Source: Flavobacterium terrisoli (lineage in GTDB: Bacteria; Bacteroidota; Bacteroidia; Flavobacteriales; Flavobacteriaceae). From it: a DNA stretch of 64,000 nt. The position numbers were made by a program, and so were the translations under genes. Below the pieces are notes generated by a model. The model made no database searches. It worked only from the letters and a program-made list of their open reading frames with translations, and had not been told where the DNA came from. Shown piece by piece: positions 876 through 44,031 of this stretch. The stretch is from assembly GCF_030167905.1 (NCBI RefSeq), contig NZ_JARGNA010000003.1:186001-250000 (forward strand), written 5' to 3'. Every line of letters starts with the position of its first letter. Positions within the stretch are counted from its first letter, which is position 1.

Positions 876-3200
876 ATGAAAAAACTATTTTGTCTTTTAG
901 TATTGATTTCGGGTATTTCCAATGCCCAAATTGTAAATATACCTGATGCCAATTTTAAGGCGGCGCTATTGAATGCAAGTACTTCAAATGCGACAGCTTC
1001 AAATGCCTATCCAACAACGGCAAGTAGTTTTGTTAGTATAGATTCAAATGATGATGGTGAAATTCAGGTTTCAGAAGCTTTGAATGTTTATTATTTGAAT
1101 GTATATAGTGATGGTATAAGTGATTTGACCGGTATTGAGTACTTTACCAATTTGAGATTTTTGAATTGTGGCATGAATGATATAGCAACTTTAAATTTAA
1201 GCGCATTAACTTACCTTCAAGAATTGAATTGTCAAAACAATAATTTAACGGTCTTGGATGTCAGTGAATTAACGAATCTTATTTATTTAAGTTGCGGGAT
1301 GAATAACTTAACCACTTTAGATATAAGTGCGTTGCCGCTTCTTCAGGATTTATATTGCTATAGCAATGATTTGACAACATTAATAGTAAGCCCAATAAAT
1401 AATCTGATGGGTTTGCAATGTAGTCAAAACAACTTCGCCACTTTAGATTTTAGCATGTTAACGCATCTTACCTTTTTGAATTGTTCTTATAATCAATTAA
1501 CAGCCATAGATGTAAGTATGCTGACTGATCTTACACAATTGTATTGCCATAATAACCAACTAACTTCCTTAGATGTAAGCGCATTGACCAATCTTGTTGA
1601 ACTCACATGTATTTACAATCAACTGACAGTTTTGGACGTAAGTGCATTGCCTAATCTTTTAGAGCTATATTGTTATAATAATAATTTAAGTACTTTAAAT
1701 CTAAAAAACGGAAGCAATGAGACGACCCTTCAATTTTCAGGCAATCCAAACCTGCTTTATATTTGTGCTGACGAAGATCAATTGGTTTCAGTTGAGGACA
1801 AAATACTTAATTATGGTTATGTAAATTGCCATGTCAATACCTATTGTTCCTTCACACCTGGCGGAAACTACAACACTATATCAGGGAATATCAGTTTTGA
1901 CAGTGATCAAAACGGTTGTGACGAAAATGATGAAACTTTTCCACACATCAGAGTAAACATTAACGACGGAACCAATCAGGAATATGGTTTTACCAGTGCT
2001 TCCGGGAATTATAACTTCTATACAGAAACCGGCATTTTTACGATTACACCGGCGATTGAAAATCCAACCTGGTTTAATTTTACCCCAACTAATGCTTCTG
2101 TGGCTTTTACAGATGACAATAATAATATTTCAGATAATGATTTCTGTGTTTCGGCCAATGGCGTTCATTCTGATGTAGAAGTGGTTATTGAACCGATAAT
2201 GCCGGCGCGACCTGGTTTTGATGCGGTTTATAAATTGGTTTATAAAAACAATGGAAACCAAACGGAAACAGTATTTGTTAACTTTAACTATGATGGTACC
2301 AGACTTCAATATGTTTCCAGTTCATCTGATCCGGTAAATGCTGCCACAGGAAGTTTGGCCTGGCAGTTTTCTAATGTGATGCCGTTTGAAAGCGGCAGTA
2401 TTTTGGTAACGCTTAATGTCAATGCACCAACCGATACGCCGGCTGTAAATATTGGAGATGTTTTAGCGTTTAGCGCATTTGTTGATATTACCACAGATGA
2501 AGACTGGGATGATAACGCATTTGACTATAATCAAACAGTGGTAGGTTCTTATGATCCAAATGACATCACGTGTCTTCAGGGCGGAATCGTTTCACCAGTA
2601 GAGATTGGAAATTATTTGCATTATGCCATTCGTTTTGAAAACACAGGAAATGCAGCAGCAGAGAATATAGTGGTGAGAACAACCGTTAATCCAACCGGTT
2701 TTGATGTCAATTCGTTACAGCTTTTAAACGCATCGCACACTGTTAACACAAGAATAAGCGGCAATATCGTAGAGTTCATTTTTCAGAATATCATGTTGGA
2801 ATCAGGTGGTCATGGCAACGTATTGCTGAAAGTAAAATCGAAAAGTAATTTGCATCAGGGCGATATGGTAAGCAAGCATGCCAGTATTTATTTTGATTAC
2901 AACCTTCCGGTGGAAACCAATGATTTTGAGACGGTTTTCCAATCGCTTAATAATCCTGATTTTGAGATTGACAATTCAATCAGTATTTATCCAAATCCAT
3001 CCAATGGAATAGTTAATATCAGTAGTAACTTCAATATCAAATCGATTGAGTTGTTTGATGTTCAGGGAAGACTTTTGCAGACTAACATAGTCAATAACAA
3101 TAATACAACCATAGATATCTCAACCCAGTCTATTGGTGTGTATTTCGTCAGAGTGGTATCTGATAAAGGATTAAAAGTAGAAAAATTTGTTAAGCAATAA
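876..3200 (+). CDS. leucine-rich-repeat T9SS surface protein
   Basis: 774 aa. Residues 1-17 are a signal peptide (MKKLFCLLVLISGISNA). After the DANFKAALL segment, roughly residues 75-292 hold about ten leucine-rich repeats of 21-22 residues with the pattern LTxLDVSxLTNLxxLxCxxNQ, and each repeat carries a Cys. Residues about 335-430 resemble an SdrD B-like domain (GNISFDSDQNGCDENDE). A DUF11-like/DUF7619 region follows (about 430-690), then a T9SS type A sorting domain from about 695 (SIYPNPSNGIVNIS) to the end. Likely an exported, surface-anchored binding or adhesion protein; the ligand cannot be told. The last 265 codons are paralogous to the upstream gene. The ATG at 876 starts a good signal peptide. 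Confidence 0.93.
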   Translation: MKKLFCLLVLISGISNAQIVNIPDANFKAALLNASTSNATASNAYPTTASSFVSIDSNDDGEIQVSEALNVYYLNVYSDGISDLTGIEYFTNLRFLNCGMNDIATLNLSALTYLQELNCQNNNLTVLDVSELTNLIYLSCGMNNLTTLDISALPLLQDLYCYSNDLTTLIVSPINNLMGLQCSQNNFATLDFSMLTHLTFLNCSYNQLTAIDVSMLTDLTQLYCHNNQLTSLDVSALTNLVELTCIYNQLTVLDVSALPNLLELYCYNNNLSTLNLKNGSNETTLQFSGNPNLLYICADEDQLVSVEDKILNYGYVNCHVNTYCSFTPGGNYNTISGNISFDSDQNGCDENDETFPHIRVNINDGTNQEYGFTSASGNYNFYTETGIFTITPAIENPTWFNFTPTNASVAFTDDNNNISDNDFCVSANGVHSDVEVVIEPIMPARPGFDAVYKLVYKNNGNQTETVFVNFNYDGTRLQYVSSSSDPVNAATGSLAWQFSNVMPFESGSILVTLNVNAPTDTPAVNIGDVLAFSAFVDITTDEDWDDNAFDYNQTVVGSYDPNDITCLQGGIVSPVEIGNYLHYAIRFENTGNAAAENIVVRTTVNPTGFDVNSLQLLNASHTVNTRISGNIVEFIFQNIMLESGGHGNVLLKVKSKSNLHQGDMVSKHASIYFDYNLPVETNDFETVFQSLNNPDFEIDNSISIYPNPSNGIVNISSNFNIKSIELFDVQGRLLQTNIVNNNNTTIDISTQSIGVYFVRVVSDKGLKVEKFVKQ
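2403..3200 (+). repeat. diverged tandem copy of bases 1-801 (DUF7619 plus sorting domain)
   Basis: Base 1 aligns with base 2403. Both segments encode the same DUF7619 and sorting-domain module with long identical peptide stretches such as GGIVSPVEIGNYLHYAIRF and FQNIMLESGGHGNVLLKVK. The DNA is clearly diverged in third positions. This indicates an old tandem gene duplication, not a recent one. Confidence 0.85.
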
Positions 3201-3227
3201 TTTTGGGTTAAAATTTATTGTGTGAAG

Positions 3228-3253
3228 AGGCGCGCCATAGGTGCGCCTTTTTT
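3228..3253 (+). terminator. Rho-independent terminator
   Basis: Nine-bp stem AGGCGCGCC/GGTGCGCCT (3228-3236, 3240-3248) with one G-T pair, a 3-nt loop and a T6 run. It closes the LRR gene. Confidence 0.85.
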
Positions 3254-3335
3254 GTTTACTGGTTGATTTCCAAAATTTATCAAATAATTAACGAAAACGT
3301 TGCCATAATTCTTTTTTATTTCATTTCGAATTCCC

Positions 3336-3343
3336 TAATTTTG
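3336..3343 (+). promoter_or_regulatory. -7 promoter element for gltA
   Basis: TAATTTTG matches the Bacteroidota -7 consensus TAnnTTTG, 41 nt before the gltA ATG. No TTG lies at the usual -33 distance. An AT-rich leader follows. Confidence 0.55.
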
Positions 3344-3384
3344 TTAAATTATTAATTTATCAAGATTTATTTCCAATTTATATC

Positions 3385-4668
3385 ATGTCTAAAACAGCTA
3401 TATTAGAACTTGATGGCGTAAAGTATGAGTTTCCTGTAATCGTAGGAAGTGAAAACGAAGCCGCCATCGACATTGAAAAACTTCGTGCATTAACCGGTGC
3501 TATAACACTTGATCCGGGCTATAAAAATTCAGGGTCGTGTAAAAGCGATATCACTTTTCTGGATGGAGAAGAAGGAATTCTTCGCTACCGTGGATATGCT
3601 ATTGAAGATTTGGCCGAGAAAGCCGATTTTCTTGAAGTTTCCTATTTAGTAATTTTTGGTGAACTGCCTACAAAAGCACAATTACAGCAGTTTGAAAATG
3701 ATATCAGAAAATATACATTGGTCAATGAAGAAATGAAAAACATCATCGATGGTTTTCCTAAAACAGCTCATCCAATGGGCGTTTTATCTTCCCTTACCAG
3801 TGCGCTTACCGCCTTTAACCCAAAAGTGGTAGATGTTGAAAATGAAAAGGAAATGTATGAAGCTGTTTGTAAAACCATGGGTAAATTCCTGGTGATTGCA
3901 ACCTGGACATACAGAAAAATGATGGGTTATCCTTTAAACTATTATGACAATACCATAGGTTATGTTGATAATTTTATGCAGTTGATGTTTAAATTGCCAA
4001 CCGGGCCATACAAAGCCAATCCTGTTGTAATTGATGCCTTAGATAAATTATTCATCCTGCATGCCGACCACGAACAAAACTGTTCAACTTCTACCGTTAG
4101 AATCGTTGGTTCTTCACACGCCGGTTTGTTTGCTTCAATCTCTGCTGGTGTTTCGGCACTTTGGGGCCCATTACATGGCGGTGCCAATCAGGCAGTTTTG
4201 GAAATGCTGGAAGCCATTCAAAAGGATGGAGGAGATGCAGATAAATATTTGGCAAAAGCAAAAGATAAAGATGATCCTTTCCGTTTGATGGGATTCGGAC
4301 ACAGAGTTTATAAAAACTTTGATCCAAGGGCCAAAATTATTAAAAAAGCAGCCGATGAGGTATTGAATACTTTAGGAGTTGATGATCCAATTTTGGATAT
4401 TGCCAAAAAATTAGAAGCTTCTGCTTTGGTTGATGATTATTTCGTATCCAGAAAATTATATCCAAACGTTGATTTCTATTCGGGAATCATTTATCGTGCC
4501 TTAGGAATTCCAACTGAAATGTTTACAGTAATGTTTGCTATAGGACGTTTACCGGGTTGGATTGCACAATGGAAAGAAATGCGTATCAACAAAGAACCAA
4601 TCGGAAGACCAAGACAGGTTTATACTGGTTATCCATTGAGAGATTTTCAACCGATGGACAAAAGATAA
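3385..4668 (+). CDS. gltA: citrate synthase
   Basis: 427 aa, the normal length for type II (hexameric) bacterial citrate synthase. It condenses acetyl-CoA and oxaloacetate to citrate in the TCA cycle, in the cytoplasm. The catalytic triad is visible: H264 in GPLHGGAN, H306 in FGHRVYK and D363 in NVDFYSG, matching E. coli H264/H305/D362. The N-terminal beta-domain (LELDGVKYEFPVIVGSENE) is also typical of the type II form. Single-gene transcription unit: promoter motif at 3336 and a strong terminator at 4691. An 11-base half of the palindrome found upstream of the first giant adhesin gene (23485-23500) occurs at 3291-3301, upstream of this gene. Confidence 0.98.
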   Translation: MSKTAILELDGVKYEFPVIVGSENEAAIDIEKLRALTGAITLDPGYKNSGSCKSDITFLDGEEGILRYRGYAIEDLAEKADFLEVSYLVIFGELPTKAQLQQFENDIRKYTLVNEEMKNIIDGFPKTAHPMGVLSSLTSALTAFNPKVVDVENEKEMYEAVCKTMGKFLVIATWTYRKMMGYPLNYYDNTIGYVDNFMQLMFKLPTGPYKANPVVIDALDKLFILHADHEQNCSTSTVRIVGSSHAGLFASISAGVSALWGPLHGGANQAVLEMLEAIQKDGGDADKYLAKAKDKDDPFRLMGFGHRVYKNFDPRAKIIKKAADEVLNTLGVDDPILDIAKKLEASALVDDYFVSRKLYPNVDFYSGIIYRALGIPTEMFTVMFAIGRLPGWIAQWKEMRINKEPIGRPRQVYTGYPLRDFQPMDKR

Positions 4669-4690
4669 AAACACGAAAAGTTTTTGATAC

Positions 4691-4720
4691 AAACTCCTTG
4701 CGAAAGCAAGGAGTTTTTTT
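4691..4720 (+). terminator. strong Rho-independent terminator of gltA
   Basis: Perfect 11-bp stem AAACTCCTTGC/GCAAGGAGTTT with a GAAA tetraloop and a run of T (to 4720). Confidence 0.95.
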
Positions 4721-5106
4721 GTTTTTATGCCAAAGAGAAAAGTGATGTTTCCCATCTTTTTCCGGTTGGGTTTTAGATTAAAATCGATCCTTTTTAGTCA
4801 TGCATTTTACTACTGTGATCTAAAAATTAACACAATGTAAAGAAAACAGTATAATGTAAGAATAGTTAATTAATATTTAATAAAAATATGTATTTCATCG
4901 ATAAAATGTGTATTTTGAAGATTTTTTGAAAACAATCATATAAATTTGGTTTAATAAAATATAAGCAATAAGAACTATTTTGAAGCAAAACCTACAGCCG
5001 CCGAGAGATAGTGAAGGAACAAAATAAAAATTTAAGCCACACCCAAAATGTAACCTGAAACAACGAGTTTTTAAATTATTTTTCTAATGCCCCAAATTTT
5101 TTAGTT
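4721..5106. other. intergenic region with promoter and about 150-nt leader
   Basis: 386 bases without a convincing ORF. It is very AT-rich and carries the promoter candidate at 4915-4948. The predicted transcript would have a leader of about 150 nt. Inside it a GC-richer patch (about 4989-5018, CCTACAGCCGCCGAGAGATAG) stands out against the AT background. I recognise no riboswitch class. Confidence 0.6.
4915..4948 (+). promoter_or_regulatory. promoter candidate for the adhesin operon
   Basis: TTG at 4915-4917 and TAAATTTG at 4941-4948, separated by 23 nt. This fits the Bacteroidota -33/-7 pattern at the long end of the spacing range. Confidence 0.5.
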
Positions 5107-7476
5107 ATGAAAAAAAACTACATTTTCTTTACAACGCTAGCTCTTTTATTGATTGCTTTTAAATCTAGCGCACAAACTGATAATACTTTCTCAGGAACAG
5201 GTGCTGGTGCGAATAGTACCGGAAATTTTAATACTGGATTTGGTGTAGATGCTTTAAAAGACAACGCCAGTCACAGTAATAATGCTTTTGGAGCCAGAGC
5301 GCTATCCGTAACTATCGGAGGTTTTAACAGTGCTTTTGGTAATGAGTCTTTAAGAAATAATACAACCGGTACATTAAATAGTGCTTTTGGTACCAGAAGT
5401 TTGTTTAGTAATGTGTCCGGTCAAAGTAATATTGCCTTTGGACACAGAGCAATGGAAGCTAATGTATCAGGAAGCGGTAATACGGCAATTGGTTATGGCG
5501 CAATGTTGAAAGCTATTGGAAATAACAATGTTGCCCTTGGAGTAAATACACCGAGAAATTTAGTTTCCGGAAACAACAACGTTTTTATTGGTGCTGAAAC
5601 CGGTAAAAACCTAATCAATGGAAGCAATAATCTTTTCTTAGGGAATGTCGCACTTGAGCCGGCGTTAACGTCAGCCAAATTAGCGGGAACTAATACCGAT
5701 GGAACTATAATCCTTGCCGATGGTTTAGGAAATCAAAGATTTTTTGTCAGCAAGTTTGGTAATGCCGGACTTGGTTTAGGAAATAACGTAATACCGGCCA
5801 ACAGACTTGATGTAAATGGAGGAGTTGTAATCGGGAAAAACTATGTGCCTTCTGCTGGTACTACAACTGCAACTACAACTTTGGCACCTACAAATGGATT
5901 GCTGGTTGAAGGAAAAGTTGGGATTGGCAACAGATTACCTAATAATAAAGTTGAAATCACTCATGGTGTAAATGGTAATTCAGGACTTAGATTTACAAAT
6001 TTGACCAGTCAATACACACCGCCGGTGGCTCAGACTTCTACCAAATTTTTAACGGTTAATGCCAATGGTGATGTAGTGTTGCAAAGAATGGCGGGCTTAA
6101 CCAATACTAATGTTATGTCGTCAAATGCGAATTTGATGACTACTAATGTTAATAGTGTTACTGCTTCGGCACCAATTGTAAATTCTATTTCGAACATCAT
6201 AAATTCAAGCAACCAATTGATTACTTCAGTAAATGGAGTAGCTAGTGCTCCCGTAAATCTACCACAATCTCTGGATAATAGCGTTACAAACGAATTGCAG
6301 ACACTTTCACAAGTTGGAAATACAATCACGCTTTCTAACGGCGGTGGTTCGGTAACCATTCTGCCTATAGAAGATACCGATACCGATCAACAGTCTTTGG
6401 GATTAACCGGAAACGTGCTTTCTATTTCAAATGGGAATAGTGTGACTTTACCAACAGTAACACCTCAAACACTTACACAATCAGGAAATACCATTACACT
6501 TTCAAATGGTGGTGGTTCAGTTGTGATTCCACCTTATATAGACACCAATACTGACCAACAATCTTTATTTTTATCTGGTCAGGTGCTTTCTATTTCCAAT
6601 GGGAACAGTGTAACATTACCTGCACAAACCCTTTCACAATCAGGAAATACTATATCACTTTCTAACGGTGGTGGTTCAGTTGTAATTCCGCCTTATGTAG
6701 ATACCAATACTGACGAACAAGTATTATCAATAACAGGAAATGTACTTTCTATCTCTAACGGAAATAGTGTAGTATTACCAAACCACGGTCCGCAATCAAT
6801 TACACAAAATGGTGCTATCGTAACCTTATCAAATGGTGGTGGTTCAATCACACTTCAATCTTCTATTGTAACAGCCGGTACCAATGTGAATGTCCTTGGA
6901 AACGGTACTGCCGGAACACCTTATGTGGTAAGCGCTACCGATACCAGTCTTTATGCTGACAATGGTGCTATCGATGCTACTACAACTATCAGTGGAAACA
7001 GAGTGGTTAATATGAATAACAGCAACATTTGGTTCAATACAGCAAATAGTAGCTCTAATGCTAAAATCTATTTAGGTTCAACTGCTTCCTATCCAAATAC
7101 AACGGGTAACTACAAATTGTTTGTTGAAGGCGGAATTTTGACAGAGAAAGTAAAAGTAGCTTTGAGAAGTTCAGCCAACTGGGCGGATTATGTTTTTGCC
7201 AAAGACTATAAATTAATGCCATTGAAAGAAGTAGAGAAATTTGTTACGGCTAACAAACATTTACCAGGGATTGACTCTGCTGAAGTATTGGCCAAAAATG
7301 GTCTTGACGTTGCTGAAATGCAGTCCAAACAAATGGAAAAAATTGAAGAGTTAACGCTTTACATTATTGACCAGGACAAAAAAATCGAAGCACAAGATAA
7401 AGCTATTGAAAAAAATAATAAAGAAATTGAAGAATTGAAAGCTTTGGTACAAGCGTTAATGGCAAAAACTAAATAA
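5107..7476 (+). CDS. YadA-head-like repeat surface protein with C-terminal coiled coil
   Basis: 789 aa. Signal peptide, residues 1-23 (ending SSAQ). Residues about 25-175 are 14-28-residue repeats of the YadA/trimeric-adhesin head type (GNNNVALG, SGSGNTAIGYGAM, NSAFGTRSL). A linker leads to a repeat block (about residues 396-585) in which a unit of about 55 residues recurs about four times (SQSGNTISLSNGGGSVVIP...LSISNGNSVVLP). The C-terminus has a module common in Bacteroidota (NYKLFVEGGILTEKVKVAL, DYVFAKDYKLMPLKEVE) and ends in a coiled coil (about 735-789). No T9SS sorting domain and no outer-membrane anchor are visible, so the export route is unclear. A trimeric fibre is inferred from head repeats plus coiled coil. 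It is followed after one base by a T9SS gene, which suggests an operon. Confidence 0.85.
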   Translation: MKKNYIFFTTLALLLIAFKSSAQTDNTFSGTGAGANSTGNFNTGFGVDALKDNASHSNNAFGARALSVTIGGFNSAFGNESLRNNTTGTLNSAFGTRSLFSNVSGQSNIAFGHRAMEANVSGSGNTAIGYGAMLKAIGNNNVALGVNTPRNLVSGNNNVFIGAETGKNLINGSNNLFLGNVALEPALTSAKLAGTNTDGTIILADGLGNQRFFVSKFGNAGLGLGNNVIPANRLDVNGGVVIGKNYVPSAGTTTATTTLAPTNGLLVEGKVGIGNRLPNNKVEITHGVNGNSGLRFTNLTSQYTPPVAQTSTKFLTVNANGDVVLQRMAGLTNTNVMSSNANLMTTNVNSVTASAPIVNSISNIINSSNQLITSVNGVASAPVNLPQSLDNSVTNELQTLSQVGNTITLSNGGGSVTILPIEDTDTDQQSLGLTGNVLSISNGNSVTLPTVTPQTLTQSGNTITLSNGGGSVVIPPYIDTNTDQQSLFLSGQVLSISNGNSVTLPAQTLSQSGNTISLSNGGGSVVIPPYVDTNTDEQVLSITGNVLSISNGNSVVLPNHGPQSITQNGAIVTLSNGGGSITLQSSIVTAGTNVNVLGNGTAGTPYVVSATDTSLYADNGAIDATTTISGNRVVNMNNSNIWFNTANSSSNAKIYLGSTASYPNTTGNYKLFVEGGILTEKVKVALRSSANWADYVFAKDYKLMPLKEVEKFVTANKHLPGIDSAEVLAKNGLDVAEMQSKQMEKIEELTLYIIDQDKKIEAQDKAIEKNNKEIEELKALVQALMAKTK
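6292..6860 (+). repeat. tandem coding repeats of about 165 bp
   Basis: Units begin near 6292, 6466, 6625 and 6790 (spacing about 174, 159 and 165 bp). They encode (T/S)LSQSGNTI-LSNGGGSVVIP followed by DTNTDQQ and LSISNGNSVVLP. The units are similar but not identical, the last one is partial, and the frame is kept throughout. Confidence 0.8.
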
Positions 7477-26600: not shown

Positions 26601-28961
26601 AATGTTACTTTTGCTTACACAGGATCAAATACCTATAGCATTTCAATCACCCGCTCGGGTGTTACCACTGTTTTGACAGGTAGAACTTTTGCAAGTGTTG
26701 CAGGAGGTTCAGTTCCTTCACAAATAGAATTCTTTAACAACAACGCCGGTGACGGAAGCACAAGAGATGTTTTCTTTAATAACTTAAATGTAAATTACCC
26801 TAAAATATTTGTGCAGCCTTCGACTGATACACAAACAGTTTGTCAGAATGCAGCAACTACAGCACTTTCAGTTACTGCCTATGGCGCTAATTTAGGATAT
26901 CAATGGTATAGTAACCCAGGGAATATTCTATTAGGAGGTGCAACATCATCTAGTTTTACACCACCAAGTGCTACTGCCGGAACCAATACCTATTATTGTG
27001 TAGTTAGTTATACAGGTTGTGGTACTGCACCAACACCTGCGACCAGTTCTTCTTCAGGAAACATAACTGTAAATCCTTCAGTGGGTACACCAAGTTTTAC
27101 GACGGGCTCAACTTCACTTTGTCAGGATGCACCTGATGAGACTTACACTGCAATAGCTTCAAATAGCACCGGTATTACTTATAGCGTTTCGCCGGTTGGA
27201 GCAGGAACAATTAATCCAACATCCGGTTTGATGAATTGGAATGCCAATTTTACAGGTCAGGCCACCATAACAGCCAGTGCAGCAGGTTGTAACGGACCAA
27301 CAACTTTTAATCGAATCGTTGACGTTTTACCTTCTGTTGGGACGCCTAGTTTTACTGCAGGTGCAACTGCGATATGTCAAAATGCTGCGAACGGGACTTA
27401 TACGGCTACTGCAACTAATGCTACAGGAGGAATCTTTTATGCTGTAGAACCGGAAGAAGCCGGAGTGATTAATGATGTAACCGGTGTAATGGATTGGGAT
27501 CCTGCTTTTACAGGGGAAGCCACGATAACAGCTTTTGCTTTTGGATGTAATGGTCCTACTACTGCTGATAGAGTAGTGACAGTTAGTACAAACCTAGCTT
27601 GGTATCGAGATTTTGATAACGATGGTTATGGTGATCTTAATAACAGCACGAGTAGTTGTACCCAACCTGTCGGTTATGTTGCCAATAGTACTGATTGTAA
27701 TGATTCAAATAATGCTATTCATCCAAATGCATTTGAGGTTTGTTTCAATGGTATCGATGATGACTGTGATGGATTTTTATCTGAAGGTTGTGCACCAGCC
27801 CTGACAAGTATCCTGCCAAGTTTCTGTGGCAATACTTTGTCAAAAGCCAAAGCAACCATCACGGCTTCGGCAGCCACCTATTCAGGTCCTTTTAGTGTGA
27901 CTTATTTATTCAGAATAACCAATTTGTCTACAAATACAACAGTTGATTTACCAAGAGCATTTAGAAATTTCAACTTGGGAATGACTAACATCATTGCTTA
28001 TGGAACTCAATATTCAGTAATAGTAGCTGCAGTTATCAATGGTGAGCAACAACCTTTCAGCGCACCTTGTTTAATCTCAACTCCCGGAGTGCCAACCACT
28101 AAATTGGTTCAGTGTGGTACAACCGCTACTTCAATGAGTTCTTCTATAGCTTGTAATTCTGTGAGTTATGCATTAGCTTATCAATTTGAGGTTTCCTTAG
28201 CCTCAAATCCTGGCGTTGTTAAGGAGTTTGAAAGACTTTACAATAACTTCTCAATGATAATGGCTGGTACTGCGCCAAATGCATTACCACTACTTTACGA
28301 TACTGATTATGTAGTTAGGGTAAGAGCAAAAGTATTGATTGACGGTGAAGAAGTTTGGGGAGCCTATGGTGATCCATGTACGGTAACCACGCCATTGGCG
28401 CCAGATGCTTTTATGGCTGCATGTGACGAAGACGGAATCACACCAGCAACTATGAGTACGATATTGTATGCCAATACAATCAACTATACCAGCATGTATC
28501 GTTTTACTTTAGTTAGTGAAGAGTTAGGATACAACCAATTTGTGGAGCATACGTTTAACAATTTCAGATTGAGTGATTTTGAAGCATTATCGCCTTTAAC
28601 TCCTGGCGCAACTTATTCCATCTTTGTTGATGTTCAGTTGTTTGGTAACTATTATCCTGGTAAAGATTGTCAGTTAATTGTTCCGTTCCCAGCCAAAACA
28701 AGAATGGTTGAAACAGAATTTGAAGTTAAAGCTTATCCAAACCCGTTTGCCAACAACTTCTTGATTGATGTGACGAGCGAAAGCGATTCACCGGTAAGCA
28801 TCAAAGTTTACGATATGGTTGGACGATTGGTTGATCAACAACAGTTTGGCGTTAACAACTTAGAGTCTTCGCCAATCGGAGACCAATACCCAAGCGGTGT
28901 TTACAATGTAGTAATCACACAAGACGAAACGGTAAAAACACTTCGTGTAGTGAAAAGATAA
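23670..28961 (+). CDS. giant T9SS surface protein with jelly-roll, Ig-like repeats and MopE-type motif
   Basis: 1763 aa. Signal peptide to about residue 42 (ending KKSFSQ). Residues about 43-290 look like a LamG-type jelly-roll. About 290-1310 hold Ig-like/PKD-like repeats of 80-100 residues, including two near-duplicate units (SQTITAP ... GGGTITSAANIQQITFTA). A second jelly-roll-like stretch lies near 850-1045. Residues about 1311-1375 are a MopE-type putative metal-binding motif ([33 protein letters not shown]). Three repeats of about 100 residues follow, starting at C1386, C1482 and C1585. A type A sorting domain begins near 1685 ([16 protein letters not shown]). Likely a large adhesin; the ligand is unknown. 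The last 1.36 kb is nearly identical to the third gene of this cassette. Confidence 0.9.
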   Translation: MEKKLLVQSSSQLCKLKSPGFFKAWLLMLVLITFSSKKSFSQTIEQFNYAAGTAALNAKNGGSGWCTSGSTNWFNTNTGLDIFNGTMAYSKNSLALSTLGTTFPSTGTGGQNNFRKITSYLGQGCGNNTYYISFLVRQKGGSNMNGYAGVSLFSSNLAACDAGTQAGTEQLIIGKRNGSGNVNWGFQIGNNINNGNNTGVAIDGTTRLIVVKISAGSGSTWSIRMWVDPALNNTLTDGQIGTAAGYCEYLNAGLSGSTCFDKFRIEGGGGSGIDLDEFRFSSTYTDVIPVQAPGISIGITSGANPVCSGTSVTFTATPTNGGTTPTYIWKKNGNAISGATGVTYTGVAGTDFVNTDQITCQVTQDVGTSGLTAQSTTSSAITMTVNTAVAITTNVTNGSACQGNSAVFSVAATGTGLGYKWQVNTGSGFVDCTAADGSGFTTNTFTTVATTGAMNGYVYQCLITGTAPCSGLTSASGTLTVVSNPTISVPPTTNACTAQGTASIVSSPAGVSSFAWYRVGSPDILLTNTTISGVTYSGATTATLSMSGLTVADNGAQFYVIGTGCGGNTATSGLSTLTINTTPSQTITAPASTCANSTGNLASVPNAGVGATYAWTIGGGTITSAANIQQITFTAGASGSVTLNCVVTANGCPSAGGQNTSVTINAIPSQTITAPGFVCGSSTGNLASVPVSAGGSYAWSITGGTITSATNIQQITFTANASGSVVLNCVVTSAQNCSSAGGQNTSIPITPATAVTGNPSKTPQSICLGGSATALSVTAVGSALTYQWYSNLNDSNSGGTLISGAVSASYTPTFSGGATLYYYCVVGGGCAPTSVPSDTSGPITFGGLPSDTANYTITNGGNQGLGFGPWAYSVSGSGGTFNGSSDIGTAWGIYANNGGSVTASRPFLVPLSSGNTVSFAFDNGGVDNVGSKVGVRLKNASNNVLTEFRFLQGVAQYSIADSATNDTGVNYTSTGLSNVTFAYTGSNTYSISITRSGVTTVLTGRTFASVAGGSVPSQIEFFNNNAGDGSTRDVFFNNLNVNYPKIFVQPSTDTQTVCQNAATTALSVTAYGANLGYQWYSNPGNILLGGATSSSFTPPSATAGTNTYYCVVSYTGCGTAPTPATSSSSGNITVNPSVGTPSFTTGSTSLCQDAPDETYTAIASNSTGITYSVSPVGAGTINPTSGLMNWNANFTGQATITASAAGCNGPTTFNRIVDVLPSVGTPSFTAGATAICQNAANGTYTATATNATGGIFYAVEPEEAGVINDVTGVMDWDPAFTGEATITAFAFGCNGPTTADRVVTVSTNLAWYRDFDNDGYGDLNNSTSSCTQPVGYVANSTDCNDSNNAIHPNAFEVCFNGIDDDCDGFLSEGCAPALTSILPSFCGNTLSKAKATITASAATYSGPFSVTYLFRITNLSTNTTVDLPRAFRNFNLGMTNIIAYGTQYSVIVAAVINGEQQPFSAPCLISTPGVPTTKLVQCGTTATSMSSSIACNSVSYALAYQFEVSLASNPGVVKEFERLYNNFSMIMAGTAPNALPLLYDTDYVVRVRAKVLIDGEEVWGAYGDPCTVTTPLAPDAFMAACDEDGITPATMSTILYANTINYTSMYRFTLVSEELGYNQFVEHTFNNFRLSDFEALSPLTPGATYSIFVDVQLFGNYYPGKDCQLIVPFPAKTRMVETEFEVKAYPNPFANNFLIDVTSESDSPVSIKVYDMVGRLVDQQQFGVNNLESSPIGDQYPSGVYNVVITQDETVKTLRVVKR
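27600..28961 (+). repeat. 1.36-kb direct repeat, copy A
   Basis: Aligns without gaps to 38601-39962 (offset 11001). I counted 18 mismatches up to about 28918 and then 11 in the last 42 bases, so near-identity ends abruptly just before the stop codon. It encodes the MopE motif, the three-repeat module and the sorting domain. Confidence 0.9.
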
Positions 28962-32200: not shown

Positions 32201-32393
32201 TGTAGCGACTGAAAGTAATTCACCGGTCAGTATTAAAGTCTATGATATGATTGGCAGATTGGTTGACCAGCAAACGAATGAAGTGACAAATCTGGAGAAT
32301 TTACCAATAGGATCACAATACCCAAGTGGTGTTTACAATGTAATCATTACTCAGGATGAGCAGGTGAAGACACTTCGTGTGGTAAAAAGATAA
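29256..32393 (+). CDS. T9SS surface protein, second of the giant adhesin cassette
   Basis: 1045 aa. Signal peptide to about residue 28 (ending TSGFA); an internal Met at residue 10 is an alternative start. Residues about 30-400 are beta-rich and Asn/Thr-rich and look like a beta-helix passenger. Ig-like repeats follow to about 590. A MopE-type motif lies at about 591-655 ([33 protein letters not shown]). The same three-repeat Cys-containing module as in its neighbours follows, then a sorting domain from about 965 ([16 protein letters not shown]). Its C-terminal half is homologous to both neighbours but clearly diverged, so it did not share their recent exchange. The ligand is unknown. Confidence 0.9.
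31024..32393 (+). repeat. diverged copy of the C-terminal module, copy B
   Basis: Homologous to 27600-28961 and 38601-39962 over the whole module, but with many third-position and amino-acid differences and a few extra codons ([12 protein letters not shown] against [10 protein letters not shown]). Confidence 0.85.
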
Positions 32394-40149: not shown

Positions 40150-40920
40150 GTGGTTAAAGAGAAAGTGATGTGTTTTATGCTTCAGGCAAGACTTGGTTCG
40201 ACTCGTCTGCCAAGGAAAATGATTCTCCCTTTTTTTAATGAGAAGAATATCCTTCAATTGATTATCGAAAAATTAAAAGCCTCTTTTCCTGAAATCCCTA
40301 TAGTATTAGCAACTTCAATTGAACCGTCCAATGATGAGTTGGAAACTTTGGCGTTGCAATTGGGTTGTCTGGTACACCGAGGCAGCGAAAAAGATGTATT
40401 GCATCGTTTTATTGAAGCCGGACAGCAATTTAATTTTAAGAATATAATTCGGGTTTGCGCGGACAATCCTTTTCTTGATGTAAAAGAAATGCAACATTTG
40501 GTTAAATTTACAAAGGAAAATGACCAATATGATTATGTGAGTTTCAAAGTGAATAATGAACCGAGCATCAGAACGCATTTTGGTTTTTGGACAGAATTTG
40601 TGACATTGGAAACCTTGGAAAGGGTAAATGCTAAAACAAAAGATGAATTTTATCACGAGCATGTGACCAATTTTATTTATCAAAATCCCGCAGCCTTTAA
40701 AATAAAATTCCTGGCAGTAAATCCGGTTTTGGAAGGCAGAAAAGATGTGAGGATGACCTTGGATACGTCAACCGATTTTGAAATGTTGTCTGAGATTTAC
40801 AAAAGATTATATTTGACCTATGGAAATCAGTTCGGGATTGATGAAATCGTAGCTTTTTTGGACACGCATCCCGATTATAAAGTCGCAATGACTGAACAAA
40901 TAAATATTAATTCAAAATAA
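40150..40920 (+). CDS. SpsF-like cytidylyltransferase
   Basis: 256 aa from a GTG start at 40150; an ATG at 40168 is a good alternative and would remove six residues. N-terminal nucleotide-binding loop LQARLGSTRLPRKM is the signature of the CMP-sugar cytidylyltransferase/SpsF group. A CADNPFLD segment carries the conserved Asp of the family. It is placed directly before a NeuB-like synthase, the same pairing as spsE/spsF, so it probably activates the product of that enzyme, or a related 2-keto sugar acid, with CTP. First gene of the second polysaccharide block. Confidence 0.8.
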   Translation: MVKEKVMCFMLQARLGSTRLPRKMILPFFNEKNILQLIIEKLKASFPEIPIVLATSIEPSNDELETLALQLGCLVHRGSEKDVLHRFIEAGQQFNFKNIIRVCADNPFLDVKEMQHLVKFTKENDQYDYVSFKVNNEPSIRTHFGFWTEFVTLETLERVNAKTKDEFYHEHVTNFIYQNPAAFKIKFLAVNPVLEGRKDVRMTLDTSTDFEMLSEIYKRLYLTYGNQFGIDEIVAFLDTHPDYKVAMTEQININSK

Positions 40921-40944: not shown

Positions 40945-42003
40945 ATGAATGACATCACAAAAAACGGCACTTATATCATTGGAGAAATTGGACAAAACCA
41001 CAATGGATCGGTAGATATTGCCAAACTGATTGTTGAATTGGTTTCAAGACCTGTTTTTGAGGCCGATTTTGGGTTGGAATTAAAACCAATGAATGCCGTT
41101 AAACTCACCAAAAGGGATTTGAAGGAAGAATTGACCGATACCCAAATGAATCGTCCTTATGATTCACCACATTCTTTTGGGAAAACCTATGGCGAGCACC
41201 GCGAATTTTTGGAGCTCAACGATGAAGAACATTTTGAAGTATATAAATATGCCAAAAGCAGAGGACTTGATTTTGTAGAAACACTGTGTTCTGTTGGCTG
41301 CCTTTCTTTGTTGAAATTATTCACTCCGGATTGCCTGAAAGTGGCCAGTCGTGATTTGACCAACTTACCGTTATTGGCCGCCATGGCGGAAACCAAGATT
41401 CCGATTGTATTGTCAACTGGTATGGCCGGAAAAAAGGAATTGGATGATGCGTTGAATACGATTTCAAAATACCACAATAATATTTCAATCCTGCACTGCG
41501 TTTCACAATATCCAACGCATCCTGATAACCTGAATTTGAGAACGATTACTTATCTTCAGAAGAACTACGGGCAATATGTTATAGGGTTCTCCGATCATAC
41601 CATTGGTATTTCAGCTCCGGTTGTTGCGGTGGGAATGGGAGCAAAAATTATTGAAAAACACATTACCATCGACAGAAACATGAAAGGCACAGACCAAGCC
41701 GGTTCTTTAGGCCCGGATGGTGTTTTCAGAATGGTTAGAGATATCAGAATTGCTGAAAAATGGGCAGGTGTAGAGGATATTTATATCGAAAAAGACGTCC
41801 TTTCCGCCAAAGTAAAATTAGAGCGTTCCATTGCGACCAAGCGACAGTTGAATGTTGGCGATGTAATACAGGAAGAAGATTTACAGCTTCTAAGTCCCGG
41901 TGATGGCTATAAATGGAGCCAGAAAGCCGAAATTATAGGAAAACAGGTTCAAGTGACTGTTCCCAAAAATGAGTTGATTTATCCGGATATGATTAGGTTC
42001 TGA
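40945..42003 (+). CDS. neuB: N-acetylneuraminate synthase family protein (NeuB/SpsE-like)
   Basis: 352 aa. TIM-barrel NeuB domain: EIGQNHNGSVDIA at the N-terminus, KVASRDLTNLPLLAAMAETKIPIVLSTGMA, FSDHTIGI, and KHITIDRNMKGTDQAGSLGPD. The C-terminal SAF domain is present (LERSIATKRQLNVGDVI ... GKQVQVTVPKNELI). NeuB enzymes condense phosphoenolpyruvate with an N-acetylmannosamine-type sugar to make nonulosonic acids. Common active-site wording differs here: SRDLTN replaces the usual SGE/SFDLTN, and GTDQAGSL the usual GPDH-ASL, so the substrate may not be plain ManNAc. No NeuC-type 2-epimerase is in the window. A decayed copy of this gene's 3' end lies at 42857-42905. Confidence 0.85.
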   Translation: MNDITKNGTYIIGEIGQNHNGSVDIAKLIVELVSRPVFEADFGLELKPMNAVKLTKRDLKEELTDTQMNRPYDSPHSFGKTYGEHREFLELNDEEHFEVYKYAKSRGLDFVETLCSVGCLSLLKLFTPDCLKVASRDLTNLPLLAAMAETKIPIVLSTGMAGKKELDDALNTISKYHNNISILHCVSQYPTHPDNLNLRTITYLQKNYGQYVIGFSDHTIGISAPVVAVGMGAKIIEKHITIDRNMKGTDQAGSLGPDGVFRMVRDIRIAEKWAGVEDIYIEKDVLSAKVKLERSIATKRQLNVGDVIQEEDLQLLSPGDGYKWSQKAEIIGKQVQVTVPKNELIYPDMIRF

Positions 42004-42080
42004 TAAAAAACGCATAGTTTTTACAGGACTTATTTGTTTAAGGCTTTTTTACATTTAATAATTAATTAAACTATTGATAA

Positions 42081-42830
42081 ATGGGCATCGAAATAAAAAC
42101 TATTGCTTCAGCGACGGAACTTAACAAAAGAGAACAGTTTTTTGAATTATTTGAAAAATCACCTATTCCGAAAAATGAAAGGCTGACTAATTCAGGTTTG
42201 TTTGTAAAAAGGCAAGACCTAACAAAACAATTGTTTTTTAATGATTTGTATAATCAATTTTTAAATGTACATGGTGTCATTATGGAATTCGGAGTTCGCT
42301 GGGGACAAAATTTAGTGACACTTAACAACCTCAGAGGCATACACGAACCTTTTAACCACAGCCGGAAAATAATCGGGTTTGATACCTTTGAAGGTTTTGC
42401 CAACGTAGATAAAAAAGACGGGAATCATGAGATAATAAAAAAAGGTGCATTTTCAGTCACAGAAAATTATGAAGAATACCTACAACAAGTATTAGAATAC
42501 CACCACAGTGAATGCCCTTTGAATCACATTAATAAAAATTTGTTAATCAAAGGGAATGCCATAGTAACTTTGGAAAAATATTTAAAAGAACACCCGGAAA
42601 CAATAATTGCATTCGCCTATTTTGATTTTGATGTTTATGAACCGACAAAAAAATGCCTGGAATTGATAAAACCCTATTTAACTAAAGGTTCTATCATCGG
42701 TTTTGATGAATTAAATGACCCCCAATTTCCGGGAGAAACAGTAGCTGTAAGAGAAGCCTTTGGACTGCAAAATGTCAGGATACAAAGGAGTAAATATAGT
42801 GGAATCCAATCTTATGTCGTTATAGAATAA
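42081..42830 (+). CDS. TylF/macrocin-O-methyltransferase family SAM-dependent methyltransferase
   Basis: 249 aa. SAM-binding motif I-like segment VIMEFGVRWGQNL, then IIGFDTFEGFANVD, and the metal/SAM region FAYFDFDVYEPTKKCLELI with GSIIGFDELNDPQFPGETVAV. This is the pattern of the TylF (macrocin O-methyltransferase) family. It probably O-methylates a sugar of the surface glycan; the acceptor is unknown. It is flanked upstream by the real neuB end and downstream by a decayed neuB-like 3' end, which suggests the gene was inserted here together with a piece of a neuB homolog. It is 77 bases from each flanking gene, in a region where most genes are tightly packed. Confidence 0.83.
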   Translation: MGIEIKTIASATELNKREQFFELFEKSPIPKNERLTNSGLFVKRQDLTKQLFFNDLYNQFLNVHGVIMEFGVRWGQNLVTLNNLRGIHEPFNHSRKIIGFDTFEGFANVDKKDGNHEIIKKGAFSVTENYEEYLQQVLEYHHSECPLNHINKNLLIKGNAIVTLEKYLKEHPETIIAFAYFDFDVYEPTKKCLELIKPYLTKGSIIGFDELNDPQFPGETVAVREAFGLQNVRIQRSKYSGIQSYVVIE

Positions 42831-42856
42831 AATTGATTTCCGATGTTGAGAGGACT

Positions 42857-42905
42857 GTAACTGTTCTCAAAATGAATTGATTGTCCCAATATGATTAAAT
42901 TTTAG
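42857..42905 (+). pseudogene. decayed 3' end of a neuB-like gene
   Basis: The 49 bases align to neuB 41953-42003 with about three quarters of positions identical and two one-base gaps. Read with the frameshifts, they encode V-T-V-L-K, N-E-L-I and P-N-M-I-K-F-stop, against neuB V-T-V-P-K-N-E-L-I-Y-P-D-M-I-R-F-stop. The TAG at 42903-42905 sits two bases before the ATG at 42908. It is too short to be functional and is best read as the scar of a duplication or insertion. Confidence 0.75.
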
Positions 42906-42907
42906 TA

Positions 42908-43510
42908 ATGATAATTGATAGTTTGGTTTTAGGAAAAGAATTGAGATATCTATTTCAAAAATTCTATGTTTTGGAAAAGGTAGACATCAATTTTGAAGAT
43001 GATGCCATTTACGAAAAAGCGCTGGCTGTTTTCCAGTTTGATTATCAACGATATTTTCCTGAAGAAGTAATCCTAAAGGAGCATTTATTTTCGAGAATTG
43101 AATTGATCGGCATTTTATTATACCGAATTGCAAGGAATTATTATTTAGACGGTAAAGAAGAAATTGCTTTGCATTACAGCAACCTCGGAAGGATTATTTC
43201 CGGATCTGAAATATTTTACTCAGCCGATATCGGCAAAGGGATAAAAATTAACCACGGATTTGGAACTGTAATTGGCGCCCGATGTACAATAGGGGAAAAT
43301 GCATTAGTGCATCAGAACGCTACGCTTGGAGACCGAAATGGAGGAAGGCCAATTTTGCTTGATAATGTCACCGTGTATGCCGGAGCCAAAATTTTAGGAA
43401 ATATCATTTGTGGCAATAACTCGGTCATTGCAGCCAATTGTGTTTGTATGATTGATGTGCCCGATAATGGACTGATTGCCGGAGTTCCCGGAAAAATAAA
43501 GAAAATATGA
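42908..43510 (+). CDS. serine acetyltransferase-like hexapeptide acyltransferase
   Basis: 200 aa. An alpha-helical N-terminal half (1-95) is followed by a left-handed beta-helix with hexapeptide repeats. GIKINHGFGTVIGARCTIGENALVHQNATLGD, with the catalytic His of INHG, and IAGVPGKIKKI resemble CysE/serine acetyltransferase. In this locus it more likely acetylates a sugar or a sugar-linked amino acid than makes O-acetylserine for cysteine; this is inference from context. Its last four bases overlap the start of the phosphatase gene (ATGA). Confidence 0.8.
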   Translation: MIIDSLVLGKELRYLFQKFYVLEKVDINFEDDAIYEKALAVFQFDYQRYFPEEVILKEHLFSRIELIGILLYRIARNYYLDGKEEIALHYSNLGRIISGSEIFYSADIGKGIKINHGFGTVIGARCTIGENALVHQNATLGDRNGGRPILLDNVTVYAGAKILGNIICGNNSVIAANCVCMIDVPDNGLIAGVPGKIKKI

Positions 43511-44031
43511 AGAAACTGCCAAAACTGATAATAACTGACATTGATGGCGTTTGGACCGATGGCAGCATGTACTACGATCAAACCGGAAACGAACTGAAAA
43601 GATTTCATACTTATGACAGTGCCGGAGTATTGTTTGCAAGGCTGTTAAATATTCCGGTGGCGATTTTAACCGGAGAAACGACTGAAATTGTCAACAGAAG
43701 AGCTGCGAAACTCAATATCGAATACCTTTTTCAAGGCGTGAAAAATAAAGTCGAAACGACTCAGAAAATCTTAGACGAACTCAAAATTGGTTTTGAAGAT
43801 TGTGCTTTTATCGGCGATGACATCAATGATGTAAAGCTTTTAGGCAAAGTTGGATTTAGTGGTTCTCCTGCCAATGCCCCCGATTATATTAAAGCAAAAG
43901 TGCATTATGTAACGCAAAAAAAAGGTGGTGAAGGTGCTTTTCGTGAATTTGTAGAGCACATTTTGAGAGAACAGGGCGTTTTTGAAGAAGTTTTAGAAAA
44001 AGCAATTTCCAATCATGAAAAATCAAATTGA
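43507..44031 (+). CDS. KdsC-type HAD phosphatase
   Basis: 174 aa, the usual length of KdsC-like phosphatases without a cap domain. HAD motif I DIDGVWTDG (nucleophile and acid Asp), motif II ILTGE, and motif III FIGDDINDVKLL are all visible. The family hydrolyses Kdo-8-phosphate, and related members act on KDN-9-phosphate or lie fused to CMP-sialate synthetases. Together with the NeuB-like and cytidylyltransferase genes it may dephosphorylate a nine-carbon sugar acid phosphate made by the NeuB-like enzyme. It overlaps both neighbours (4 and 17 bases). Confidence 0.85.
   Translation: MKKLPKLIITDIDGVWTDGSMYYDQTGNELKRFHTYDSAGVLFARLLNIPVAILTGETTEIVNRRAAKLNIEYLFQGVKNKVETTQKILDELKIGFEDCAFIGDDINDVKLLGKVGFSGSPANAPDYIKAKVHYVTQKKGGEGAFREFVEHILREQGVFEEVLEKAISNHEKSN

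Follow-up and report, generated by a model that had tools for sequence, protein, structure and literature searches.

The window, a 64,000-nucleotide stretch of the Flavobacterium terrisoli genome, contains a plus-strand operon in which a cytidylyltransferase gene, a neuB-family synthase gene, a methyltransferase gene (MT), a short neuB remnant, an acetyltransferase gene (AT) and a HAD phosphatase gene follow one another in this order. The cytidylyltransferase (40150..40920), which probably activates a nonulosonic acid, matches Pfam CTP_transf_3 at 82.5 bits (cut-off 22.6) and no NCBIfam model above its cut-off. The product of the intact neuB gene (40945..42003) was identified as a NeuB-family nonulosonic acid synthase by its NeuB and SAF domains, both above the Pfam cut-offs, and scored below the cut-offs of the models for N-acetylneuraminate synthase (TIGR03569, NeuB_NnaB; 231.7 against 399.65) and pseudaminic acid synthase (TIGR03586, PseI; 194.1 against 340.25). 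The phosphatase (43507..44031), whose nearest solved chain is 3e81 (E 4.3e-55), reached 256.8 bits with the KDN-9-phosphate phosphatase model NF058599, for which the cut-off is 180. Since the phosphatase exceeds the KDN cut-off and the synthase falls below those of the Neu5Ac and Pse synthases, we read the operon as one that probably makes KDN. Given this operon partner, the gene called neuB more probably encodes a KDN-9-phosphate synthase, the enzyme that converts mannose-6-phosphate to KDN-9-phosphate in the KDN pathway. A second, distant neuB-family gene (28% identical) lies about 6.7 kb beyond the window end (genome G000, contig C10, 256655-257614), and the strain may therefore make two nonulosonic acids.

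Between neuB and the phosphatase lie two genes for sugar-modifying enzymes. MT (42081..42830), which has one match in its own genome, resembles sugar O-methyltransferases; it matches CalS11, a TDP-rhamnose 3'-O-methyltransferase (PDB 4gf5/3tos; phmmer E 4.2e-62), and its match to Pfam Methyltransf_24 is below cut-off. AT (42908..43510) encodes a left-handed beta-helix protein of the serine acetyltransferase type of hexapeptide enzymes, with Pfam Hexapep above cut-off and matches to PDB serine acetyltransferases at E values from 5.2e-16. By these likenesses, MT is predicted to O-methylate the product sugar, probably KDN, and AT to acetylate it. The neuB-MT spacer (42004..42080) measures 77 nt, which is unusually long for this junction by comparison with the MT start offsets of other MT loci. 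It is not repeated in the genome, where it finds, besides itself, short matches at E 0.126 or worse. The stretch 41990-42090 around it folds better than most shuffled sequences (z -2.27; 5 of 200 at least as good), and the spacer could be an intergenic hairpin. RNA folding of 42831-42940, a stretch that covers the gap behind MT, is unremarkable (z -0.12).

This gap contains a decayed neuB 3' end, stop codon included (42857..42905). Pairwise alignment to the last 51 bases of the intact neuB (41953..42003) gave 37 identical bases in 49 aligned columns, an identity of 75.5%, and needed two one-base gaps, in agreement with the preliminary description, in which the gap was aligned to the same bases at about three quarters identity and with as many one-base gaps. 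The P-x-M-I-x-F-stop ending pointed out there is also retained: the remnant closes with CCC-AAT-ATG-ATT-AAA-TTT-TAG (P-N-M-I-K-F-stop) where neuB reads P-D-M-I-R-F-stop, and its M-I-K-F-stop reading frame (42891..42905) ends 2 nt before the AT start. A comparison with shuffled sequences of the same composition, suggested at the same time, revealed that the local score of 25 was reached by none of 20,000 dinucleotide shuffles (shuffle maximum 21); with a second gap setting, none of 10,000 shuffles was as high (maximum 24.5). When 132 intergenic gaps were compared with the 3' ends of upstream genes, the remnant ranked second among 336 comparisons (99th percentile 18.3), behind the scar of the Prevotella locus L058 described below. 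Its 3' half was recovered independently by an ungapped repeat search, which paired 41979-42006 with 42881-42908 at 71%. The remnant matches the neuB end of L030, the nearest relative of the window, in 41 of 49 columns, and this alignment scored 32, with 0/10,000 shuffles as good; the same gap scored 22.5 against the neuB end of locus L032 (4/10,000) and 15 against that of Flavobacterium cauense (761/10,000). Both the remnant and the window neuB end are like the neuB ends of loci with AT and unlike those of genomes of the MT type. The 26 nt between the MT stop and the remnant (42831..42856) have no detectable homology to any of the three neuB ends with which they were compared (p 0.40 to 0.89), so the remnant starts at about 42857.

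Gene order in relatives was examined in a genus sample of 299 genomes, the window's own included each time, with thresholds of E 1e-60 or better for neuB and 1e-20 for MT and AT. These searches found neuB in 8 genomes, MT in 5 and AT in 6; in a larger genus sample of 398 genomes, neuB was present at 1e-120 in 10. A sample of 150 genomes around that of L030, which appears largely to repeat the earlier one, yielded L030 itself and one neuB at 68%. In three relatives that lack MT at this position, G237 (whose contig is L032), Flavobacterium cauense (G173, L031) and G362 (L112), AT stands immediately behind neuB, and the phosphatase comes next. The distance from neuB stop to AT start is +2 nt in L032 and L031 and +1 nt in L112; in the window, AT starts at +2 nt from the remnant stop, exactly as in L031 and L032. 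These gene orders and the shared 2-nt spacing bear out the proposal of the preliminary description that neuB once directly preceded the gene at 42908. The gap is short and A+T-rich, which would favour a fortuitous likeness, but the shuffles and the conservation of the AT junction in relatives refute chance resemblance, to which we assign a negligible probability. An assembly artefact is unlikely, given that the two copies disagree in a quarter of their positions. The remnant is what is left of a neuB-AT junction.

The order neuB, MT, phosphatase was found in G225, G096, UBA2787 (L107) and L104, where MT starts at -7, +1, +1 and +3 nt from the neuB stop. Thus, the MT start lies between -7 and +3 nt in 4/6 MT loci, the exceptions being the window (+77) and L030 (+42), and in 9/11 AT-type loci an in-frame ATG falls between -8 and +6 relative to the neuB stop (the script found none in L042 and L046). 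Such close junctions in most loci, set against the offsets of +77 and +42, argue that MT, and not AT, is the loosely attached gene. The spacers of these two exceptions have no detectable likeness to each other (919/5000 shuffles as good). L030 has neuB, MT, a second methyltransferase and the phosphatase in this order, and the second methyltransferase (Methyltransf_11; 4006-4881) occupies the slot behind MT. AT has no match in the L030 genome at E 1e-15; within the L030 interval between MT and the phosphatase, neither the remnant (gap score matched by 1792/3000 shuffles) nor AT (score 34.5, under the shuffle mean of 41.9) was detected.

The interval between neuB and the phosphatase is an exchange slot. 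We classified 87 loci, namely the window itself, 80 found with its neuB and six that came from searching the genus; this sample was selected by likeness to the window neuB and contains two contigs of one assembly (L059, L070). In 58 of the 87 loci, neuB and the phosphatase lie within 120 nt of each other and the slot is empty or nearly empty; in three, no phosphatase was found. The filled slots hold an AT relative in 11 loci, MT in six (including L030 and the window, which also has AT) and other sequence in nine. Seven of these nine start with a similar glycosyltransferase sequence (of three tested, two scored above the Pfam cut-off and one just below), another contains an Acyl_transf_3 enzyme, and in L083 the gap is longer, with the phosphatase as the sole ORF found. 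Among the 87 loci, MT and AT occur together in the slot in the window only; L030 apart, the other filled slots hold about one gene's length.

Identities and trees indicate that MT and neuB have different histories, in keeping with the insertion of MT proposed in the preliminary description. The neuB genes of the window and L030 fall with AT-type genomes (100/99), whereas UBA2787, G225 and G096, the genomes of the MT type, group elsewhere together with G108 (100/98). In MT, the window and UBA2787 share 79.9% identity, more than UBA2787 and G225 do (75.1%); for neuB this order is reversed, with 72.6% between the window and UBA2787 and 81.0% between UBA2787 and G225. The near-identical genomes G362 and UBA2787 (rpoB 99.4%, gyrB 99.8%) carry an AT and an MT locus, respectively, and the locus itself has therefore been exchanged. 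Flavobacterium cauense and G225 were not used as a further pair, being joined by rpoB (99.5%) but not by gyrB (93.2%).

The reading that we prefer, with a probability of about 0.55, is that MT entered over a neuB-AT arrangement by homology-anchored displacement and left the old 3' end of neuB behind. Incoming DNA, with the 3' region of a neuB gene ahead of MT, would have paired on its left side with the resident neuB; on its right side, it would have been joined by illegitimate recombination at a point roughly 50 bases short of the stop of the resident neuB. MT would then stand between an intact neuB and the old neuB tail, which would have kept its link to AT. The process would be homology-facilitated illegitimate recombination (HFIR), or an equivalent single-crossover integration, and its outcome would be a slot with two modification genes instead of one. 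Entry of MT is favoured on two grounds: it saves one event, where the replacement of the tail and AT by the second methyltransferase in L030 is taken as one event, and the loosely joined gene is MT rather than AT. Against it stands L030, the sister of the window by rpoB (97.3%), gyrB (97.5% over a 315-aa piece) and neuB, which has MT without AT or a detectable remnant, so that a later loss is required. The same gene content suits the converse history, in which the ancestor of the window and L030 had neuB, MT and the phosphatase, and a fragment with a neuB tail and AT was added behind MT from an AT-type locus; we regard this as a possible though less probable course of events, and propose equally tentatively that homology in the phosphatase gene would have anchored such a fragment, with an illegitimate join at its left end. 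On the left of the scar, trees firmly pair the window with L030 (neuB 98/98; cytidylyltransferase, the CMP transferase gene, 100/99), whereas the phosphatase tree to the right gives no such support: at the DNA level no grouping of the window, L030 and L032 is favoured (p 0.43), and the protein tree places L030 with L032 at 89/79. However, the converse history costs one event more, and DUF4910, farther right, again joins the window with L030 as sisters (83/81). Moreover, the nucleotide identities between the window and L032 are alike for neuB (76.5%), AT (78.2%) and the phosphatase (79.1%), with third positions near saturation, and AT thus gives no sign of having been shared with L032 at a later date than the adjoining genes. 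Of the insertion history first proposed, the former adjacency of neuB and AT and the separate history of MT stand, but MT as the incoming piece is no more than the more probable reading, since a tail with AT placed behind neuB-MT, as L030 suggests, also fits.

The remnant itself gives little direction. Its best tree (51 columns) joins it to the window neuB end at 58/73, placements with the L032 end (p 0.18) or the L030 end (p 0.20) are not rejected, and by plain identity L030 is closest. Windows of 90 nt along neuB revealed no clear switch between donor and recipient, the 4-fold sites are unresolved or saturated and give no direction, and none of the loci examined contained a donor with these exact junctions. 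Two further histories would account for the repeat itself in other ways. A further neuB gene, for instance a complete tandem duplicate, might once have lain between MT and AT and decayed to its last 49 bases, and the two one-base deletions in the remnant are what such decay would give; yet just 26 nt separate the MT stop from the remnant, these bases hold no trace of neuB, and a second neuB in the slot was seen in 0/87 classified loci, as judged by spacing, which makes a decayed whole gene improbable. A transposon-like element could have brought in MT, leaving the direct repeat that flanks the gene on both sides as its target-site duplication. We consider this more improbable still: apart from MT, the region 42004-42907 has no plus-strand ORF of at least 80 aa and none is listed on the minus strand, a repeat search at the two insert ends found no inverted repeats bracketing MT, and 49-51 bases exceeds the target duplications known from transposons.

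Similar scars were found elsewhere. In Prevotella HJM029 (L058), which gave the top rank among the 336 comparisons, a UDP-sugar dehydrogenase gene (2988-4307) has a DUF6169 gene (4595-5098) behind it, and directly after the latter lies a 94-base copy (5099-5192) of the dehydrogenase 3' end (4220-4313) with 91/94 bases identical; the cytidylyltransferase gene and then neuB come next. In Segatella maculosa (L051, 3932-5238), which is 90.2% identical to L058 over a region starting near the scar, the dehydrogenase gene is followed 52 nt later by the cytidylyltransferase gene with nothing between. The L058 scar is a similar, independent case of 3'-end duplication behind an added gene, here that for DUF6169. 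In L053, the end of a gene for a 649-aa polysaccharide protein (2037-2198) recurs around 2986-3148, after a NusG-like gene and just before the cytidylyltransferase gene. In L084 (4967 and 4983-5027), the final 45 bases of a UDP-sugar dehydrogenase gene score as repeated just behind that gene (score 29). Scanning the loci for such repeats, we found one downstream of 9/929 gene 3' ends, six of them intergenic, of which those in L040 and L056 look like doubtful ORFs or dispersed repeats; of 903 gene 5' ends, four had a repeat, none of them intergenic and upstream. A control with other loci matched 10/929 3' ends, a figure that includes orthologous genes and so provides no clean null. Within the window, 3' ends of neighbouring genes are also alike in coding sequence at 28961 and 32334-32393 and at 801 and 3141-3200; the gene at 32393 encodes a long secreted-type protein, and its likeness presumably stems from shared C-terminal sorting domains. 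It is conceivable, though we think it doubtful, that Bacteroidota glycan operons recurrently stack genes by duplicating the 3' end of an upstream gene that itself stays intact, with the newcomer placed behind the whole synthase and the old tail kept as a translation-coupling leader of the displaced gene (here M-I-K-F-stop 2 nt before AT). The numbers from the scan, L058 and L053 are too small for a general claim. If this route is true, the window would have gained its doubly equipped KDN operon, with methyl- and acetyl-modifying genes, in this way.

Gain and loss of modification genes shape surface-sugar operons, and the individual steps are seldom visible. Here, a scar of 49 bases dates one step of operon building relative to its neighbours, shows the exchange slot between synthase and phosphatase, and accounts for the presence of two modification genes in one operon. 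It leads to the prediction of a sugar with both methyl and acetyl modification.

The KDN operon of Bacteroides thetaiotaomicron consists of synthase, phosphatase and cytidylyltransferase genes. The window operon resembles it in that its phosphatase matches the KDN-9-phosphate phosphatase model and neuB and the cytidylyltransferase gene are adjacent, and differs from it in having MT and AT between synthase and phosphatase. The Bacteroides operon was reportedly described by Wang in 2008, a study cited in PMC7845648. The titles and abstract beginnings of the literature consulted mention no such scar in a neuB or KDN operon. As defined in excerpts from two reports, HFIR joins added DNA through one homologous border and one border without homology, and has been described in naturally transformed bacteria and in E. 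coli conjugation (PMC3240628, PMC2884548). The window likewise has one homologous border, in neuB, and one non-homologous border, the 26 nt with no detectable match, with the added DNA between them; the difference is that in those bacteria the process itself was described, whereas in the window it is deduced from the product alone. C-terminal displacement of rhs genes is said to have been described by Jackson in 2009. In the excerpts of a study on Vibrio type VI secretion clusters, effector displacement follows the same logic for effector modules (Kirchberger 2017, PMC5361080). In these systems and, on the favoured reading, in the window, a new module stands beside a conserved gene part, and the old 3' part and its neighbour have been shifted downstream and kept. 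The genes involved there are toxin and immunity genes, whereas the window has a sugar synthase and sugar-modifying enzymes; furthermore, the window synthase is intact and a scrap of the old end alone remains. The window combines a non-random leftover, an ancestral junction, uninterrupted relatives and a separate history of the added gene, as in a 3'-end displacement scar. The recombination outcome is a known one, of which this sugar operon provides an instructive new case.
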